From positions 1,413,168 through 1,477,167 of the forward strand of contig NZ_CP009528.1 in assembly GCF_000970025.1 (NCBI RefSeq): a stretch of 64,000 bases of DNA, in the 5' to 3' direction. Origin of the DNA: Methanosarcina barkeri MS (GTDB lineage: Archaea > Halobacteriota > Methanosarcinia > Methanosarcinales > Methanosarcinaceae). This document shows, piece by piece, positions 26,712-37,873 of the stretch. The position numbers and the translations under genes are program-made. Position 1 is the stretch's first letter. Each line of letters starts with the position of its first letter. The notes under the pieces were generated by a model, which was not told the origin of the DNA, searched no databases, and saw only the letters and a list, made by a program, of their open reading frames with translations.

Positions 26712-26812
26712 AAATCCAAATAAAAAACTGAAAATGAGGTTTAAAATAAAAAAATTAAGAGAAGATGACAGAACTGGTTTTGCAAGGACTGGTTTTGTAT
26801 CCTCTTCAAATT

Positions 26813-26838
26813 GAGTGGAAATCTCTCAATTTCCACTC
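26813..26838 (+). terminator. Terminator-like hairpin
   Basis: GAGTGGAAAT (26813-26822) and ATTTCCACTC (26829-26838) form a perfect 10-bp stem with a 6-nt loop, followed shortly by a T-run. It lies about 100 bp after the secreted-protein gene. Confidence 0.65.
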
Positions 26839-27487: not shown

Positions 27488-27831
27488 TACCATCAGAAAC
27501 GCAACAAGAGTACACCATTTCTAAGTGTACTCTTGTTGTCATTTATTTTCACCCCGTGATTTAACTCCAGATACAGAATTAAGTAAACCTTATATTTTTT
27601 CAAAGTTGACTTAATTAAGCCGCTGGACATTTGGAGTTCAAATTAGTTTTTCAGAGAGGTTTGAACTCCACAATTTAATACTAACGCACTCTATATAAAA
27701 TACAAAGTTTTTAGCCAAATCATTAAACTATCAAATCAGATGTTTAATCTCTGATTTTATTTTTCAGTGATAGTGCTTAATATAACAAATATTTTAGTGA
27801 AAATATTTTTGTGTTTTGAATATAAGTTATA
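27488..27831. ncRNA. Structured intergenic element, copy 1
   Basis: This ~340-bp element recurs at 28125-28450 with roughly 80 percent identity by eye. It has a near-terminal hairpin with a perfect 14-bp stem (CAACAAGAGTACAC/GTGTACTCTTGTTG), a second stem TGGAGTTCAAA/TTTGAACTCCA and a third long-range stem near 27692/27778. No open frame is shared by the copies. A TATA-like CTATATAAAAT lies inside the third stem. Whether it is an RNA gene, a regulatory DNA element or a non-autonomous mobile element is undecided; strand is unknown. Confidence 0.45.
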
Positions 27832-28124
27832 CTATGAAGTAAAAGGTGTGCTATGTTAGATAATTTGGATTTTTTACTTACAAAGCAGTTCCTCAAAAAA
27901 TAACGTAAATGGGCAAAGTTGCAGGAATAAAAATCATATTTCATTTTGGGTAGTTTTTAAAATATAAATCGTGGAGAGCTATAGGTTCAAGTAAAAGACG
28001 GGGTTAAAATACATTTATTTATCTGAGTCTGTTTTTTAATGTTTTATCCTGAAGTAAGCCCATTATTTAAAGAATATCAAATAGGTTTTTTCAATTTCAT
28101 CCCGATAAACAGGATTTTGATACA

Positions 28125-28450
28125 TACCATCAGAAATGCAACAAGAGTACACCAATGAGTGTTCTCTTGTTGTTCTTTCTTTTCACCCCGAGATTTAACT
28201 CCAGAGACTGGATTAAGTAAACCATCACTTTTTCCAAAGTTAACTTAATTAAGCCACTGGACATTTGGAATTCAAATTGGTTTTTTGGAGATATTTGAAC
28301 TCCATAATTTAATACTAAGGTATTCTATATAAAATACAAAGTTTTTAGCCAAATCATCAAACGGTTAAATCAAATGTGTAATTTCTGATTTTATTTTTCG
28401 GTAGAATACCTAATATGACAAATCGTTTAGTATCTTGGATATAAGTTATA
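28125..28450. ncRNA. Structured intergenic element, copy 2
   Basis: Second copy of the element at 27488, in the same orientation with starts 637 bp apart. The first hairpin persists (CAACAAGAGTACAC with GTGTTCTCTTGTTG, one mismatch), as does the second (TGGAATTCAAAT/ATTTGAACTCCA). The third stem is a perfect 9-10 bp pairing here (AGGTATTCTA/TAGAATACCT), although its sequence differs from copy 1. The ATAAAATACAAAGTTTTTAG segment between the arms is unchanged. Confidence 0.45.
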
Positions 28451-29176
28451 TAGGGTCCTTCCAAATCAGTACTAAAACTAAGGGTATACAATGCTTATTT
28501 TGGATAATAGGTATGCATTTAGAATTTTTCCAATTAAGGTACACTCTAAAAATCAATTTTTTAGATAAATAATCTATAATAGTCTTTTAAATCAAGAAGA
28601 GAGCGAGATAAATACTTTATTCTATTACAATTTCTGTTTATTTAGAAATAAGGCATCTGATATCATTTTCATTCATACAAAATTTAATGTTAAAAGTAAG
28701 GAAAAATTAACGTTTAATTTACCAATTAAAGTACTTAATTCCTTTAAATAGTAAATAAATTCTTTAATGAATGTACCTTAGCGGGGAGAGGACTGACACT
28801 ACACTTAATTGGGCAAATAAGGTTTAATATCCCTTAAAAAACTAATCATTTTTCAAGGGGTTTAAAGTTATACCATGTGTGAATTTTGAGCTTTTTCGTG
28901 TCCTTTTCAAATTCAATGGAGAATTTTCCAACTCGAAAAATGTACAACAATTTAATCATACAGTTATAAAGTTGAGTACAACGCTTGAGGTTGTTTCTCA
29001 AACTTAATTAAATTTTTAAATTTTCAGTAAATACGTGAAATTTACTTTTACCTATACAATTTGAAGAGGATACAACGATACATATAAACACTGAATCATT
29101 TTTCCATTAAAGTTTAGTATGAGAAATTATGTTTTGGTCATATGTAAACCTCACAAATGCACACAATAATAGATCA
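28451..29176. other. AT-rich intergenic region with IS-like debris
   Basis: No gene is seen. It contains the palindrome at 28831-28860 that recurs at 21009, and TTAAGGTACACT near 28536, which is inverted as AATGTACCTTA near 28770; these could be ends of a small decayed element. Confidence 0.4.
28831..28860. repeat. Dispersed 29-bp palindrome, copy 2
   Basis: CCCTTAAAAAACTAATCATT then TTTCAAGGG(G); same sequence as 21009-21037. The arms CCCTT-AAAAA and TTTTT-AAGGG pair. Confidence 0.7.
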
Positions 29177-29835: not shown

Positions 29836-29871
29836 TTAGGTAGGTTAATTCACAAAATAAGGTGTTCTGTG

Positions 29872-31545
29872 ATGGAGAAAAAAAAGTTATTATTTTCTAT
29901 TTTCTTGACAGCACTGATTTTAATAACGGCGGGCTGTGCTAATAAGGACAATACTCAGGCCGGAGCATCGGCTGAAAACGCTTCTGATCAGACAGGGGCA
30001 TTGGTTGAGAACCCTTCCGACGGATCAAAGTATGTGGATGTTGTAAATCTAAGCGGAGGAGATTGTGGCTATCCACAGCCGTTTACAATATATCCGAGGG
30101 GTCCTGGGTCATCAAAAGTTGGAATGATCTTTGACAGCCTGTTCGAAAGGGATGAAAAAGGTATAATTCCCTGGTTGGCTGAAAGCTGGGATGTCAATTC
30201 AAATGGAACAGAATATACAGTTTATCTCCGTGACGGTGTCAACTGGAGCGATGGAGTGCCTTTTACGGCAAATGATGTTAAATTTACTTTCGATTACGAG
30301 CAGAAAAATGTGCCCATATCAGGTGGAATTGAGTCCGGTATTATAGATAATGTTCAGGTTGTGAATTCCAGTACCGTCAAGTTCGTACTCACTCAGCCTG
30401 CTTCTCCATTCATTTATAAGCTCACGAGTTTTAAAATCATACCTGAGCATATATACAAAAATGTCTCCGATCCTACCAGTTTCCTTGATCCGGAAGCAGT
30501 CATTGGCACTGGCCCGTTCATTCTTGATGAGTACAACAAAGAGCATGGAACATATCGGTTTGTAGCAAATGAGAATTTCTGGGGACCGGAGCTTGCCGTT
30601 AAAGCCGTCGAATTTATTCCGGTCAGCGACTCATTGATAGCTTTTGAACAGGGACAAATAGATTTCACAAGTATATCGCCTGATACTCTTGACCGGTTCA
30701 AATCAGATTCTGATATAAGAATAGTCCAGCAGCCGGCTTTCTGGGGTTACCAGTTTTATTTCAATATGAAAAAATGTCCTGAACTAAATAACAGTAGAAT
30801 AAGGCAGGCCTTTGCTTACGCCATTGATCGCGATGAACTGGTGGAAAAGATCGCAAGAGGTGCAGGCAAAGCCGGTAAAATGGGCATACTCCCTGAAGAC
30901 CATATTTGGTATAACTCTGACCAGCCAAAATATGATTACAATCCGGATAAGGCTCGAGCATTGCTTGAAGAAGCCGGATGGACTGACACAGATGGGGATG
31001 GAATACTTGATAAAAACGGGGAAAAACTGTCATATGTATTATCTCTTGGCAGTAACGAAGTCCGTATCGGCGAACTTATAAAAGAGAGACTGAGTGAGGT
31101 GGGAATTGACGTTCAGGTGAAAGCCCTTGAGAGTAAATCCCGTGATGCCAATCTAAAGAGCGGAGACTTTGAACTTGCGATCAGCGGCTTTGGCGGCTGG
31201 GGGCAGGATGCGGATTATCTCCGTACAAGGTACTGTGACACAGGTGCACAGTCAGGAAGTGTATCATCTGGCGCAGCAATATTTGGTTACCACAATGATA
31301 CCCTGAATGATCTTGGCACTCAGGAATTGCAGGAATTGAACGATAGTAAACGGAAAGAAATAGTATACAATATGCAGATCGTACTTGCTAATGATGTACC
31401 CGCAATACCGCTCTATTATACTACATCATATGATGTATGGCGCATTTCAAAATATGACGGCTGGATGAATAGATACGATCACCATGCAAGAACACACAGT
31501 ATTCTTTCGTATTTAGAGAGGGATGGAATTGCAACAAAAAGATAA
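29872..31545 (+). CDS. Nickel/oligopeptide ABC transporter substrate-binding lipoprotein (NikA-like)
   Basis: From the ATG at 29872 (GGTG 8 bp upstream) the protein has 557 residues. A lipobox (ITAGC, Cys22) follows a hydrophobic signal, so it is lipid-anchored outside the membrane. The body is a family 5 solute-binding protein: [23 protein letters not shown], then F-T-A-N-D-V-K-F-T, and a late segment with [15 protein letters not shown]. This family binds peptides, nickel chelates or metallophores; the ligand cannot be read from the sequence. It heads an operon with permease and ATPase genes and two methyltransferases. The next gene overlaps its 3' end by 23 bp. Confidence 0.9.
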
Positions 31546-32383
31546 CATTGATAACCTGATCGACTGCTGGAAAAAAACTACAACTAGTGTGATGCTCCAG
31601 GATGAGGGCAGGATGGCAGCGTTCTGGAACAAACGTTCTGGGGACTATGCGAATAACATTGAAAAAGATAACAGAAAGAAGAGAACCGATGAGATTCTCG
31701 ACCTCCTTGAAGAGGCCGGATTTAATCCGGAAGGTTCCAGAGTCCTGGATATCGGGTGCGGGCCCGGTACTCTCACTCTCCCTCTTTCAAAGCTTGGAGC
31801 AGAGGTGACAGCACTTGATATCTCATCAGGAATGCTTGACAGACTGAAAGATTCTGTAAAAACAGAGTCTCTTCCGGTAGATATCGTTGAATGCTCCTGG
31901 TGGACCGCAGACATAGATGAGCTTGGGTTCCGGAATGAATTTGACCTGGTAATTGCATCCATGACCCCGGGAGTAAAGGATATCGAAAGTTTTGACAAAA
32001 TGATGGAGTGCTCGAAAAATCTCTGTTATTACAGTAACTTTCTGAGAAGAGAAGAGGACAGGGCATATCGTGACATCAGGAGTTCGATACTCGGTGAAAA
32101 ATCCGAAAATAACATGAACGGCATAATTTATCCATTCATGTATCTTTACCTCTCAGGCTACAAGCCATCGCTTCGGATCAACCATTCCGAATGGAAGGAT
32201 GAACTAAACTGGAAAGAAACGGCAGAACAGACAATAGGGTTCATTGGAAGGGACCGGGATTTTGATGACGAAACAAAGCAGAAAATAAAGGATTATTATC
32301 AAAATGCCTCCCCAGATGGAATCTACCATTCTGAGTCTGATGTATATACCGGTATGATGGTTTGGGAAGTTAAAGGCAGATGA
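31523..32383 (+). CDS. Class I SAM-dependent methyltransferase in the transporter operon
   Basis: This 286-residue protein carries motif [16 protein letters not shown] (about 74-88) and an acidic motif II region ([12 protein letters not shown]), so it binds S-adenosylmethionine. The N-terminal ~50 residues are helical and contain [14 protein letters not shown], typical of small-molecule methyltransferases. The substrate is unknown. It starts inside the end of the binding-protein gene with a GAGAGG ribosome-binding site, so translation is coupled. A methyltransferase between the binding protein and permease genes suggests it modifies the imported ligand or helps to make it. Confidence 0.85.
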
Positions 32384-32411
32384 TCGGATAGTAAAGGGAA
32401 AAGATGATTGG

Positions 32412-33395
32412 ATGGTAAATGACAGGAATTCGTTTATTTTCAGGTTGTTATCAACACTTTTTATAATTCTTGTCATTAATTTTTTTCTACCGAGGATGAT
32501 GCCTGGAGATCCATTCTCAACAACTTCCGCAGATGAAGTTGGGGAAGACATTATTGTAATGACAGAGGAGCAGCACCTTTATTACATAAATTATTACGGA
32601 CTTGACAGGCCATTGCCTGAACAATTTTTAGCATATATGAAAAACCTGATGACTGGCAATCTTGGAAGGAGTATTTATTATAAAATGCCGGTCAGCGACG
32701 TAATACTGCTCCATCTTCCCTGGACTATATTGATTGTCATGAGTGCTACAGTAATCAGTACAATCTCCGGTGTGGTTCTTGGAACAATTTCTGCAAAGAA
32801 CCGGAAGAAGGAGAGTGATAGAATTATGATGACGGGTATGATTGCCTTTGCAGAAATTCCTTCCTTTCTGCTTGGTCTGATCCTTCTTCTGATTTTTAGT
32901 GTATATCTCAGGCTTTTTCCACTTGCAGGTGCTGTTATCCCCTTCGCAAACTATAATGGTCCTGCAGAACAGATACTGGATATATCGTACCATGCCTTTC
33001 TGCCTGTTCTGACTCTCTCACTTTCACAACTGACCGGCGTGTACTTGCTCACCAGAAACACACTGATTACTGTAACCACAAAGGATTATATCAGGACTGC
33101 CAGAGCCAAAGGTCTGGGTGAAAAAAACGTTTGGATCCGGCATGCACTCCGAAATGCACTGCTCCCGGTAGTGACAAGAACAGGTTTTACGATCGGCATA
33201 ATGATGGGGGGTGTTGTACTGGTTGAGAATGTTTTTTCCTATCCAGGCATAGGGATGACACTCAGAAGTGCTGTAGTCGGCCGGGATTATCCGCTTATTC
33301 AGGGTATTCTCCTAGTAATTGCAATTTCCATACTTATCTGCAACCTTCTGGTTGACAAAATATACGGGAAACTTGATCCGAGGGTTGTGATATAA
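32412..33395 (+). CDS. Nickel/oligopeptide ABC transporter permease (NikB/DppB-like)
   Basis: This 327-residue permease has about six transmembrane helices, the N-terminal MMPGDPF segment and the EAA-loop-like motif DYIRTARAKGLGEKNVWIRHALRNALLP that contacts the ATPase. It pairs with the NikC-like permease downstream. It begins 28 bp after the methyltransferase. The next gene's frame opens just before its stop codon. Confidence 0.92.
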   Translation: MVNDRNSFIFRLLSTLFIILVINFFLPRMMPGDPFSTTSADEVGEDIIVMTEEQHLYYINYYGLDRPLPEQFLAYMKNLMTGNLGRSIYYKMPVSDVILLHLPWTILIVMSATVISTISGVVLGTISAKNRKKESDRIMMTGMIAFAEIPSFLLGLILLLIFSVYLRLFPLAGAVIPFANYNGPAEQILDISYHAFLPVLTLSLSQLTGVYLLTRNTLITVTTKDYIRTARAKGLGEKNVWIRHALRNALLPVVTRTGFTIGIMMGGVVLVENVFSYPGIGMTLRSAVVGRDYPLIQGILLVIAISILICNLLVDKIYGKLDPRVVI

Positions 33396-34366
33396 TAAAG
33401 GATACTGATGCTTCTGGAAACGCCGGAATACTCTCTTTTATTCAGGCTTTAAATATTAATAAAATTAACAAAATTGGTAGAGTTAACGGAATTGACAGAA
33501 TTAACAGAACTGTCAGCAGCATAGCTAAACCATTCTCCAGGTTCAGTACTGAAGGTAAAATTGGTATCCTTGGAATTCTCTGCATCATTTTAATGGCAGT
33601 TTTTGCTCCTGTGATAACAATTTATCCTCCTCAGAAGATTACAGGCGATTCACTTGAACCTCCTGGTCCCGGACACATACTTGGAACCGATGAACTCGGT
33701 CTGGATATCTGGTCACAGATATGTTACGGTGCAAGAATGAGCCTTACAATAGGGCTTGCCGTAGCCGTTATAGCAGGTTTTGGGGGAGGAGCTCTTGGAA
33801 TACTGGCAGGATATATTGGAGGGCATGTTGATCAGGGCTTGATGAGAGTAATTGATGTGACAATGGCTCTTCCAAGCTTTCCTCTTCTGATTGTAATATC
33901 TGCTTTTCTTGGTCCAAGCATTCTTAACGTAATTCTTATACTTGTTATTTTCAGCTGGGCCAAACCTGCACGTATTGCACGTTCCCAGACATTGTCACTA
34001 AAGAATAACAACTATATTATTGCCGCCAGGAACTACGGCGCAAAGCCATTTTACCTGCTCCGGAGGCATATATTTCCTGAAGTTCTGCCTGTCCTGTTTG
34101 TGCTTGTCATCGGGATATCCTCACACGCAATCATAGCCGAAGCAGGACTTGCCTTCCTGGGCCTTGGAGATCCTACTTCCAAGAGCTGGGGGATGATGCT
34201 TAATCATGCAACCAGTTTCCGTTCGATATATTTTACACCTTACTGGAAATGGTGGTTATTGCCTCCGTTGTTTATGCTCATTTTCCTCCTGCTCTGTCTT
34301 GCATTCATAAGCAGGGATATGGAAAGGATACTTGATCCGATATTAAAGATAAAAAAAGGCTTATGA
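33392..34366 (+). CDS. Nickel/oligopeptide ABC transporter permease (NikC/DppC-like), start problem
   Basis: The conserved part starts before the first ATG (33593): the first transmembrane helix (GKIGILGILCII) and a cytoplasmic N-tail read open upstream to about 33377, but no ATG, GTG or TTG occurs in that frame. An ATA or ATT start near 33392-33395, or a frameshift, is needed for a full-length protein. A good ATG with AAAGGA upstream (33408) opens a different frame that ends after 14 codons. The rest is normal: LGTDELGLDIWSQICYGARM, five further helices, and the EAA loop AARNYGAKPFYLLRRHIFPE. The start I give is an estimate. Confidence 0.8.
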   Translation: MIKDTDASGNAGILSFIQALNINKINKIGRVNGIDRINRTVSSIAKPFSRFSTEGKIGILGILCIILMAVFAPVITIYPPQKITGDSLEPPGPGHILGTDELGLDIWSQICYGARMSLTIGLAVAVIAGFGGGALGILAGYIGGHVDQGLMRVIDVTMALPSFPLLIVISAFLGPSILNVILILVIFSWAKPARIARSQTLSLKNNNYIIAARNYGAKPFYLLRRHIFPEVLPVLFVLVIGISSHAIIAEAGLAFLGLGDPTSKSWGMMLNHATSFRSIYFTPYWKWWLLPPLFMLIFLLLCLAFISRDMERILDPILKIKKGL

Positions 34367-34581
34367 TCATGAGTCTGCTTAAAACCAATGATTTTAAATG
34401 CCACTATCTGACCAACATTTCCAGGCTTAAGGGAAGCGAGTTTAAACACCTGGAAATCGGAATGCAGATGATTTTCCAGAATCCGAAATCTTCCCTCAAC
34501 CCCAGGATGAAAATATACGGTTTCATTGCCGAACTTTTAAGGCTACATAGGCTCTGCGAAAGGGATGAAGAAAAAGCATGA
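34363..34581 (+). pseudogene. Chimeric remnant of the transporter ATPase genes
   Basis: The first 17 residues (MSLLKTNDFKCHYLTN) match the start of the ATPase encoded at 36146 (MNLLKINDLKCHYLTD). The frame then jumps to a piece resembling the Q-loop of an OppF/NikE-type ATPase (MQMIFQNPKSSLNPRM). Walker A, signature and Walker B are missing. A deletion that fused the start of a nikD copy to the middle of a nikE copy explains it. It overlaps the permease stop by 4 bp as an active operon gene would. Confidence 0.75.
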
Positions 34582-34674
34582 CATGGAAGTCGTAGATTAG
34601 ATGAGCGATGGGGTGTGGTTATGGAAGAGGGAAAATTATTGATTTCAGATGACTTATCATGGTTTCTATGATTT

Positions 34675-34868
34675 TCAATTTATTTCCAATTAACTTCCAA
34701 TTTATTTCCAATTTATTTCCAATTAACTTCCAATTTATTTCCAATTTATTTCCAATTAATTTCCAATTTATTTCCAATTAATTTCCAATTAATTTCCAAT
34801 TAATTTCCAATTTATTTCCAATTTATTTCCAATTAATTTCCAATTAACTTCCAATTTATTTCCAATTG
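34675..34868. repeat. 12-bp minisatellite, about 16 units
   Basis: Units of TTTATTTCCAAT and TTAATTTCCAAT (some with ACTTCC) alternate for about 190 bp, ending 36 bp before the O-methyltransferase ATG. The array separates the ATPase remnant from that gene. Confidence 0.95.
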
Positions 34869-34903
34869 GTTTACGAAAAAAAAAGCGTAAAAGGAGATTG
34901 AAC

Positions 34904-36088
34904 ATGAAAGTAAAGAACGAGCTAATGGACACTCCGGCTGTGGGTGTAGACCGTTTCGTCAAGACCATGGAAAACTCGACCAGGGGACTGAAAGAGTACA
35001 GGTTGATCTTTACAGCTCTTGAACTTGAGGTGTTTGAAGCTCTGAAAACCCCCTTTCAGGCAGGTGAACTTGCCGAAAAAATAGGGCTCGATCCGGTGTT
35101 AACTCCCCATTTCTGCGAAGCTCTTGTCAGTCTCGGGCTTTTGGACAGGTTTGAGGAGATCGTTGAGGAAGAGATGACGGAAAAAGAGGGAGAAGAAAAA
35201 GAGGGAGAAGAAAAAGAGGGAGAAGAAAAAGAGGGAGAAGAAAAAGAGGGAGAAGAAAAAGTTGAAAAAAGCACGTTTTTGCCCAGGTATGTGAATTCGG
35301 AACTTACCGCTACATATCTCCTTAAAGAAAGTCAGTTTTCCCAGCAGCAATACCTTTCCGAAATGTCCAGGAACGCTGTACTCTGGGCCCGTTTGCCCGA
35401 GCTTATGAAGAATGGGCCTGTAGTTGTCGATAAAGGTCCCTTTTTCTGGGAGATTATCAGTTGCATGGCTGAAAACACCCGCTGTGGACTGCTCCAGGAA
35501 ACCGTCAGGACGGTTATGGAAAACGTTGATTTAGGAAAGGTTCGAAAACTTCTGGACATGGGAGGAGGGCACGGGCTCTATTCTATTGCTTTTGCTAAAA
35601 TGAACGAGCAGCTAAAAGCTTTTGTATTTGACCTTCCCCAGGTAACCATAAAGACGAAGCAATACATTGAAAAATACGGGGCTTCCAATGTGAACGTAAT
35701 TCCCGGTGATTTCTTTAAAGATGAACTCGGAACCGGGTACGACCTTATATTCTCATCCTTTAACCCTGGTGGCAAGGCTCCCGAACTTATTCCTAAAATT
35801 GCTTCAGCCCTGAACGATGGTGGGGTTTTCGTAACTCTGCAGGTCCCGGATGAAAATACGAAATCAGACCCTCTCTTCAGCCTGGACTGGAACCTTTGGA
35901 CCTTTGAAGACACAAAGAAAGGTAGTACAGGATACTGCTTCGAAAATAGCGTGCCCTTCAATGAATATATCGGGATGCTGGGAGACTACGGACTTGAAGT
36001 CTTCAGGACCCTGGACATGAAAGAGGGGTCAAGAATGGTTTTTGCAAAAAAAGCAGGAGTGAACTCAGGGGCGGATGAACAGGAGTAA
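34904..36088 (+). CDS. O-methyltransferase-like protein with an internal KEGEE repeat
   Basis: From the ATG at 34904 (GGAG 11 bp upstream) the protein has 394 residues. The N-terminal winged-helix dimerisation domain (FEALKTPFQAGELAEKIGL) and the catalytic domain with motif I LLDMGGGHGLYS (about 216-227) and FVFDLPQV fit the acetylserotonin/hydroxyneurosporene O-methyltransferase type. Between them (about 92-120) lies a pentapeptide KEGEE repeat, encoded by five 15-bp units; it looks like a recent insertion in a surface loop. The methyl acceptor is unknown. It lies between the transporter permease and ATPase genes, so a link with that importer is likely. Confidence 0.85.
   Translation: MKVKNELMDTPAVGVDRFVKTMENSTRGLKEYRLIFTALELEVFEALKTPFQAGELAEKIGLDPVLTPHFCEALVSLGLLDRFEEIVEEEMTEKEGEEKEGEEKEGEEKEGEEKEGEEKVEKSTFLPRYVNSELTATYLLKESQFSQQQYLSEMSRNAVLWARLPELMKNGPVVVDKGPFFWEIISCMAENTRCGLLQETVRTVMENVDLGKVRKLLDMGGGHGLYSIAFAKMNEQLKAFVFDLPQVTIKTKQYIEKYGASNVNVIPGDFFKDELGTGYDLIFSSFNPGGKAPELIPKIASALNDGGVFVTLQVPDENTKSDPLFSLDWNLWTFEDTKKGSTGYCFENSVPFNEYIGMLGDYGLEVFRTLDMKEGSRMVFAKKAGVNSGADEQE
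35180..35254 (+). repeat. 15-bp coding repeat, 5 units
   Basis: GAAAAAGAGGGAGAA is repeated five times within the methyltransferase gene. The 15-bp unit keeps the reading frame, so copy-number changes only alter loop length. Confidence 0.95.
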
Positions 36089-36145
36089 GAGCCTGATATT
36101 GAGTGGATTATTGAGAGGGAAAAAAGTCAGGGACGAAAAAGGGTT

Positions 36146-37873
36146 ATGATTATGAATCTGCTTAAAATCAATGATCTTAAATGCCACTATCTAACTGACG
36201 TTGATACCATTAAGGCTGTTGATGGTATTTCTTTTGAGATTAAAGAAGGAGAAATTCTGGGTATTGTTGGAGAATCCGGCAGTGGTAAGACCACCGTTGC
36301 CCTCGTGATTATGGGGCTATTACCGGAAAATACAGCTATTTCCGGGGAAATTCTTTACAGGGATGAGCTAATCTCATCTTTGCCTGAACCTGAAATGAAC
36401 AAATTCAGATGGAAGGATATTGCAATAGTTTTTCAGAATAGCCTTGAGGTGCTGAACCCTGTTATGAAAGTGGGCATTCAGGCAATGGAACCGATGATAA
36501 AGCACCTTGATATCAGCCCTGAGAAAGCACAGAGTAAATGTGCGGATCTGTTCAGGACGGTTGGCCTTGATCCTAAATGGATGGATTCATATCCGCATCA
36601 GCTATCCGGAGGTATGAGGCAGAGGGTTCTTCTGGCGATGGCTCTTTCATGCGACCCGAAATTGCTGATTCTCGATGAAGTTACTTCTTCCCTTGATGCA
36701 TTTACCCGTAAGGAAATCAGAGACCTTCTTGTCGACCTTCAGAAGAATAACAGGTATACGATGTTAATGATCTCTCATGATATCACTTTTGTATCTTCTG
36801 TGGCATCCAGGATTGCTGTTATGTATTCAGGAAGGGTTGTTGAAACCGGGCCTGTAAGGGATATTCTTGTATCTCCCCGTCATCCTTATACAAGGGGCCT
36901 TGTCCACTCGACCCCGGATATTTTTGTTTATAAAGATTTATGGGGAATTCCCGGCGATGCACCTGCAGGGGACGGATTTAAGGGCTGTCCTTTCAGCCCG
37001 AGATGTACACAAAAAATCGATATCTGCAGTAAAGTTTCCCCGGTTCTGACGCCGATAGGAGATGGAAGGGAAATTGCATGCCATAGAGGAGGTATAGCAG
37101 ACGTTCTGGTGGCTAAAAACCTGCGTTTCAGATATCGTCTACCTAATAAAGAATATCTTCAGGCAGTTGATAATGTTAATCTGGAAGTGAGGGAAGGAGA
37201 GGTTCTTGCAATTGTCGGCCAGACTGGTTCGGGAAAGTCAACACTTGCACATATCCTTGCAAATGTAATTAGGCCCGAGTGTGGAGAGGTATTGTTTATG
37301 GGCAGGAATGTTGTCGGGGAAAGCTATGGAAGCAGGTTCAATGGCATTCAAATAGTATTCCAGGACCCATTCAATTCAACCAGCAACAGGTTTACTGTGC
37401 TTGATGCAATCAAGGAGCCTCTTTATATCAATAATATCGGGTCCAATGGAGATAGACTGCAAATGGTTAAAAGTGCCCTTGAACTTGTTCGTCTTCCCAG
37501 TACTGACAATTTCCTCAGCAAATATTGCGGTGAACTCAGCGGCGGGCAGAGGCAGAGAGTTGCACTTGCAAGAGCAATGGTTATGGAACCAAAACTTCTT
37601 ATTGCCGATGAGATAACGTCGGCTCTGGATGTTTCAACCTCTGCAAATATATTGCGTCTGCTAAAGGGCCTTCAGAACAGGAGAGGGTTTGCAATGATAT
37701 ATATTTCACATGATCTTTCCCTGACACTGAAGATTGCTGACAGGATAGCCGTTATGAATTCCGGAAAGATTGTCGAGATGGGGAATTCCCACGACGTTAT
37801 GCTCTCACCTTCTGATGAGTACACAAAAAGACTTGTGGGTTCAAGAATCGGACTGTGCTGTCATACTCATTAA
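36146..37873 (+). CDS. Fused ABC transporter ATPase (NikD-NikE/OppDF-like)
   Basis: This 575-residue protein has two complete ATPase domains. Domain 1: Walker A GESGSGKTT (42-50), signature LSGGMRQRV, Walker B LLILDEVTSSLD, then the oligopeptide-transporter tail with a four-Cys-like region (CPFSPRC...CSKV...CHRG) that may bind an Fe-S cluster or metal. Domain 2: Walker A GQTGSGKST (about 358), signature LSGGQRQRV, Walker B LLIADEITSALD. In most bacteria these are two genes. It powers the NikB/NikC-like permease. The domain boundary is near residue 325. Confidence 0.9.
   Translation: MIMNLLKINDLKCHYLTDVDTIKAVDGISFEIKEGEILGIVGESGSGKTTVALVIMGLLPENTAISGEILYRDELISSLPEPEMNKFRWKDIAIVFQNSLEVLNPVMKVGIQAMEPMIKHLDISPEKAQSKCADLFRTVGLDPKWMDSYPHQLSGGMRQRVLLAMALSCDPKLLILDEVTSSLDAFTRKEIRDLLVDLQKNNRYTMLMISHDITFVSSVASRIAVMYSGRVVETGPVRDILVSPRHPYTRGLVHSTPDIFVYKDLWGIPGDAPAGDGFKGCPFSPRCTQKIDICSKVSPVLTPIGDGREIACHRGGIADVLVAKNLRFRYRLPNKEYLQAVDNVNLEVREGEVLAIVGQTGSGKSTLAHILANVIRPECGEVLFMGRNVVGESYGSRFNGIQIVFQDPFNSTSNRFTVLDAIKEPLYINNIGSNGDRLQMVKSALELVRLPSTDNFLSKYCGELSGGQRQRVALARAMVMEPKLLIADEITSALDVSTSANILRLLKGLQNRRGFAMIYISHDLSLTLKIADRIAVMNSGKIVEMGNSHDVMLSPSDEYTKRLVGSRIGLCCHTH

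Follow-up and report, generated by a model that had tools for sequence, protein, structure and literature searches.

Duplicated repeats in Methanosarcina barkeri as probable gene-less copies of an sRNA162-type leader and antisense RNA module

The genome of Methanosarcina barkeri MS contains two neighboring copies of a structured repeat of about 330 bp, which raises the question of what the repeat encodes and on which strand. In methanogens, as far as we are aware, cis-regulatory RNAs are few, and sRNA162 has so far been an isolated example, with a second target that has gone unexplained. We analyzed a window of 64,000 nucleotides around the repeat; the genome to which it belongs, referred to here as G000, is from the genus Methanosarcina and is 4.57 Mb in size. 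An initial annotation of the window had described a duplicated element with three stems, the third of them maintained by compensatory base changes, and had favored a functional structure over plain decay. Judging from sequence comparisons, we propose that the repeats are gene-less copies of a regulatory module consisting of a minus-strand promoter and leader with an overlapping plus-strand promoter for an sRNA162-type antisense RNA, a reading to which we assign a probability of roughly 0.75.

The duplication is as had been described: copy 1 (27488–27831) and copy 2 (28125–28450) lie in the same orientation and are 85% identical over 311 bp. A third near-full copy is present in the same genome at G000 C2:1489419–1489754. 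At the DNA level, relatives occur in 20 of the 31 Methanosarcina genomes, M. barkeri MS included, and in none of 29 genomes from outside the genus. The first two stems hold up as well. Stem 1 is a 14-bp hairpin, perfect in copy 1 (27502–27515/27525–27538) and with 13 of 14 pairs in copy 2 (28139–28152/28159–28172), and stem 2, the GGAGTTCAAA hairpin, is paired at 11 of 11 positions in copy 1 and at 10 of 11 in copy 2. A search of the window against Rfam gave no match at the gathering threshold and only implausible microRNA and snoRNA matches at E ≤ 10, and the element had no match in a plasmid collection.

The genes beside most of the related loci lie on the strand opposite to that on which the element had been read, and many of them begin directly after it. 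On this strand, each copy consists of a TATA box and a structured 5′ leader of ~140 nt that ends in a Shine–Dalgarno sequence, and the order of parts is constant: TATA box, P1, P2–P4, Shine–Dalgarno sequence, start codon, and signal-peptide coding sequence. The TATA box of the leader promoter, TTTATATA, is invariant in all ten full copies; by its sequence it is the internal TATA-like box previously marked as a possible promoter, here assigned to the minus strand. P1 is a hairpin with the arms TGGAGTTCAAA and TTTGAACTCCA, P2–P4 is a long imperfect hairpin closed by CCCGGAGGCA and TGCCTCGGG, and the Shine–Dalgarno sequence that follows the fold is GAGGTA or GGGGTG. Consensus folds of the mixed alignments A2 and A3 showed almost no structure because hairpin arms were misaligned, and the fold was resolved with the subset A4 and the held-out alignment A6. 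The covariance model R1, which describes the leader strand, was trained on 14 copies, including both in the window. The leader features of the window are as follows.

27692–27699, minus strand: leader promoter TATA box TTTATATA of copy 1, from the sequence, invariant in ten full copies
27531–27672, minus strand: structured leader RNA of copy 1 (P1 ~27670–27632, P2–P4 ~27626–27567); R1 153.5 bits as a training member, RNAfold z −3.8
27550–27555, minus strand: Shine–Dalgarno-like GGGGTG of copy 1, from the sequence and alignment A4
27540–27542, minus strand: ATG of the decayed secreted-protein gene of copy 1, whose frame stops after 20 codons; from the sequence and the intact relative L029
27502–27538, minus strand: 14-bp hairpin of copy 1 just past the start codon (stem 1 above), typical of a gene-less subgroup
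28326–28333, minus strand: leader promoter TATA box TTTATATA of copy 2, from the sequence
28165–28306, minus strand: structured leader RNA of copy 2; R1 147.2 bits as a training member, RNAfold z −3.6
28184–28189, minus strand: Shine–Dalgarno-like GGGGTG of copy 2, with the following start codon lost (AAGAAC); from the sequence and alignment
28139–28172, minus strand: hairpin of copy 2 past the lost start codon

For the P2–P4 domain, folding is more favorable on the leader strand in 23 of 24 copies (mean −25.3 vs. −18.5 kcal/mol), and for P1 it is more favorable on the other, sRNA strand in 20 of 24, as expected if P1 forms in both RNAs but P2 in the leader alone; because the sequences are related, these counts are not independent trials. 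An upstream SL3-like inverted repeat, CCAAATCATCAAAC with GTTTGATACTTTGG, is 63–81% paired and has no preference for the sRNA strand. It therefore looks more like a DNA operator, and we set it aside as evidence for an RNA. A conserved inverted repeat, GTTTGATGATNTGGC, is located just upstream of the BRE/TATA region and persists at some loci that have no leader (L024, L025, and L006); it forms the SL3 arms at sRNA162 loci and may be a transcription-factor operator.

R1 identifies 27 copies in G000 and matches 28 of the 31 Methanosarcina genomes, where as many as 32 copies occur per genome. At the level of the family, matches were obtained in 31 of 61 genomes and in 10 of the 14 genera sampled. 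A class-wide draw of 31 genomes from other families gave none, and two weak matches were found in one genome from another family of the same order. In 40 held-out leaders, 90% of the pairs are kept. The number of double-change cells in these leaders is 76, compared with 21.4 ± 3.6 in shuffled alignments, and the covariation score is 0.298, compared with 0.188 ± 0.007; neither value was reached in any of 500 shuffles, in tests that are inflated by kinship among the copies and on an alignment (A6) that was fitted to R1 and so favors structure, the excess nonetheless being large. Real covariation, for which the initial annotation had proposed to test further copies, resides in P1 and P2–P4 on the minus strand, so that the leader is a structured RNA with covarying pairs, present in multiple copies in the family of Methanosarcina. 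Its strand, searched against Rfam for the window and the related loci tested, matched no family, apart from implausible sub-threshold matches, and a search of the literature outside subscription papers found no paper on it.

In most members matched by R1, the leader is followed by a Shine–Dalgarno sequence, a start codon, and a signal-peptide gene; in the window copies these genes have decayed or disappeared. At least 39 of 58 leaders share the position of a start codon that opens a frame of at least 50 amino acids, and the first downstream frame encodes a hydrophobic N-terminal stretch in 46 of the 58. The leaders are located directly before signal-peptide genes, the products of which include C39-like peptidases, a reprolysin-like metallopeptidase, and a protein with a weak phospholipase-C-like match. 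At four loci of G000 (L114, L119, L121, and L124) the leader-driven genes look frameshifted within the signal-peptide region, so that this genome appears to hold many broken members of the family.

Several matches connect the leader with a published module. The sRNA162 of M. mazei has a length of 191 nt and overlaps the leader of MM2442 by 65 nt, and its first 65 nt bind that leader in vitro; the accessible text of the study reports two copies in M. mazei and one each in M. barkeri and M. acetivorans, and allows for transcriptional interference or promoter occlusion as the antisense mechanism (Jager et al. 2012, PMC3510493). In G000 we found three sRNA162 matches above the cut-off, and all five Rfam sRNA162 matches in this genome lie opposite R1 matches. 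R1 matches the antisense strand of 14 of 15 sRNA162 loci, none of which was in the training set, with E values from 2e-6 to 7e-19; one of the 14 (L057) is displaced by ~80 nt, and the fifteenth (L059), which is cut by a contig end, has a weak match (E 0.04). In the opposite direction, the Rfam model RF02792 matches locus L014 over its full length in the window-plus sense with 52.6 bits (E 5e-7), which is below its curated cut-off of 78 bits. RF02792 has no match in the window at the gathering threshold or at E ≤ 10, and R1 matches the minus strand of both window copies. Among intact genes, L029 is the closest to the decayed sequence in the window, and a gene from its family is driven by the leader of L044, an sRNA162 locus above the cut-off. 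Judged by these matches in both directions and by the shared geometry, the element is a paralogue of the published module.

As at sRNA162 and the MM2442 5′ untranslated region in the accessible text of PMC3510493, the antisense RNA would start inside the leader of a divergent gene. That text describes one locus and its duplicate, whereas the module here is multi-copy across the family of Methanosarcina. Its members mostly fall below the RF02792 cut-off on the sRNA strand and, in contrast to sRNA162/MM2442, the window copies have neither a gene nor an RF02792 match. The leader fold and the pairing of P2 with the Shine–Dalgarno sequence do not appear in the account given in the accessible parts of PMC3510493, which also report no ribosome binding site at the predicted MM2442 start. 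The end of the leader carries, at sRNA162 loci including L035 and L039, a TTG codon with the Shine–Dalgarno sequence GAGGTG, which suggests that starts of MM2442-type genes have been annotated too far downstream.

A TATA box on the antisense strand, CAAGCCTTAAATATT, is present in the P4 loop and 3′ strand of 32 of the 40 held-out leaders, compared with 1.7 expected from shuffling. It precedes the position that corresponds to the 5′ end of sRNA162 by ~26–29 nt, and other offsets gave 0 or 1. A TATA-like box is present in copy 1, and the site is degenerate in copy 2. Transcript starts are inferred from TATA positions and the published RACE data from M. mazei. The corresponding features are as follows.

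27590–27597, plus strand: antisense sRNA162-type TATA-like box TTATATTT of copy 1, from the sequence; its position fits the conserved antisense TATA box
27619–27810, plus strand: predicted sRNA162-type antisense RNA of copy 1, start inferred and length by analogy to 190 nt; RF02792 geometry in L014, with no RF02792 match in the window
28222–28233, plus strand: degenerate antisense TATA site CATCACTTTTTC of copy 2, from the sequence and alignment A1

P2 has in its 3′ arm (GCCTC) a complement to the Shine–Dalgarno sequence (GAGGT), and the two vary together: CCTTC occurs with GAAGG in L112, ACTCCTAG with CTAGGAGT in L092, and CCTCTT with AAGAGG at sRNA162-type loci. The pairing energy of matched arms and Shine–Dalgarno sequences averages −9.17 kcal/mol, compared with −7.20 ± 0.30 for permuted combinations (0 of 2000), a difference inflated by relatedness. 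In the window copies this pairing is weak (−4.7 and −6.5), which speaks against the proposed reading, as do their lack of an RF02792 match and the antisense mechanisms allowed for in PMC3510493. The antisense TATA box and the paired variation suggest a switch in which closed P2 (GAGGC with GCCTC) would leave the Shine–Dalgarno sequence free. The antisense RNA would begin opposite the 5′ arm of P2, its 5′ end being complementary to P1 and to that arm. By pairing with both it could open P2, and the 3′ arm thus released could then pair with the Shine–Dalgarno sequence and turn translation off. That such an antisense-driven exchange controls translation is a tentative proposal, for which we put the chances at nearly even.

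The scheme resembles translational riboswitches and attenuators in having mutually exclusive helices, one of which masks the Shine–Dalgarno sequence; the proposed trigger is, however, an antisense RNA encoded within the leader rather than a ligand. In bacteria, cis-antisense control of leaders is familiar from plasmid copy control and type I toxin–antitoxin systems. There too an antisense RNA over a structured 5′ leader alters access to the ribosome binding site, but the module described here is chromosomal, occurs many times per genome, and precedes diverse archaeal secreted-protein genes.

What remains of the module in the window is uneven. Copy 1 keeps the promoter, the fold, the Shine–Dalgarno sequence, the ATG, and the antisense TATA-like box, and could by its sequence make both RNAs; its reading frame, however, ends after 20 codons, beyond which the sequence has decayed. 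In copy 2, AAGAAC stands in place of the start codon, and the antisense TATA box is gone. Between the copies, only the last 17 codons of a neighboring gene are left.

28063–28116, minus strand: final 17 codons NPVYRDEIEKTYLIFFK and stop of a gene otherwise lost, found by tblastn with full-length relatives

An intact gene related to this remnant, elsewhere in the genome, encodes winged-HTH domains. Because the secreted-protein genes are gone from the window, no such protein is controlled there now, and decay is also part of the story. The preference for a functional RNA structure over plain decay stands for the family, for reasons other than those first given and mainly on the other strand. The truncated frame of copy 1, the missing start codon and antisense TATA box of copy 2, and the reduction of the neighboring gene to 17 codons are what would be expected of plain relics, that is, functionless 5′ ends of lost secreted-protein genes. 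We consider this a substantial possibility, if somewhat short of an even one; against it, the leader block is better conserved than its flanks across six genomes and the promoter TATA box is invariant in ten copies.

The conservation just mentioned has a further possible explanation. The hairpin past the start codon defines a subgroup of at least 11 copies in six genomes, both window copies among them, and is absent from intact genes. The block of promoter, leader, and hairpin (27734–27495) is 86–90% identical across species, with flanks falling to 30–70%, and two copies retain the hairpin despite having lost the start codon. The gene-less subgroup could on these grounds be a stand-alone RNA, such as a decoy that captures sRNA162-type antisense RNAs by pairing and thereby spares the leaders of active genes. 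The same pattern would arise, however, from gene conversion among the copies or from a recent duplication that is decaying slowly, and the pairs and promoters of copy 2 are degrading, so that we regard a stand-alone role as unlikely; a stand-alone or decoy role is no more likely than plain relics with gene conversion. The most comprehensive version, in which one repeated RNA device (a leader with an internal antisense RNA, in which P2 is exchanged for a helix masking the Shine–Dalgarno sequence) would govern a set of secreted-protein genes and the gene-less copies would act in trans as decoys for the antisense RNAs, is a speculation with long odds against it. The leader by itself, covarying, found up to 32 times per genome, carrying its own antisense promoter, and preceding secreted peptidases and other exported proteins, would turn sRNA162 into one member of a regulon-wide device, and it gives a directly testable model of a switch.

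The region is also bracketed by a perfect 19-bp inverted repeat, TTGTATCCTCTTCAAATTG (26795–26813 and 29057–29075), a motif that occurs 37 times in the genome with up to two mismatches and that looks like a small palindromic (MITE-like) repeat family. The bracketing and the copy number could suggest a mobile element or its ends. Several other inverted pairs of the motif are only ~40–320 bp apart, however, and the third leader copy has no such motif attached, the nearest occurrence being 1.6 kb distant; leader copies stand in a fixed relation to start codons and not to inverted repeats or a transposase. We rejected this reading, which is highly improbable, because the terminal inverted repeats are not tied to the repeated unit.

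The third stem, on which the case for function had originally been built, reads letter for letter as described, with C–G pairs in copy 1 and T–A pairs in copy 2 at two positions; all nine pairs form in copy 2 and seven of nine, counting one G–U, in copy 1, for which six had been claimed. The maintained pairing does not extend further. In an alignment of ten full copies, the eight others have 3–5 of the nine pairs, paired cells amount to 57.8% compared with 57.2% in shuffles, and the covariation score is 0.091 compared with 0.087 ± 0.010; across 25 copies the paired share is 45%. The eight further copies rule out stem 3 as a covarying helix, an outcome that the initial annotation had itself named as refuting, and chance is the best account of the compensation between copies 1 and 2. 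The stem spans the leader promoter, with its 5′ arm overlying the TATA box of the minus strand and the flank of that box, and the 3′ arm is within a less conserved segment (27774–27735, 66% identity, compared with 86–90% in the adjoining block). A plus-strand element of three stems, the third kept by compensatory changes, retains almost no probability on this evidence, even though P1 folds slightly better on the plus strand and copies 1 and 2, compared alone, do show the two exchanged pairs.

Beyond copy 2, the sequence from 28451 to 28884 has matches of 82% and 71% in the vicinity of leader copies of two related genomes, which suggests that a conserved or decayed unit takes up more of the intergenic region. 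Further along, a 40-nt inverted repeat (29172–29211/29362–29401) has arms that are 83% complementary and 150 nt apart, and the segment 29168–29387 has an 81% match to a place in a related genome. According to translations of the open reading frames, positions 29869–37873 appear to encode a solute-binding protein, two permeases, and a double ATPase of the dipeptide/nickel transporter type, with two genes for SAM-dependent methyltransferases interspersed among them.
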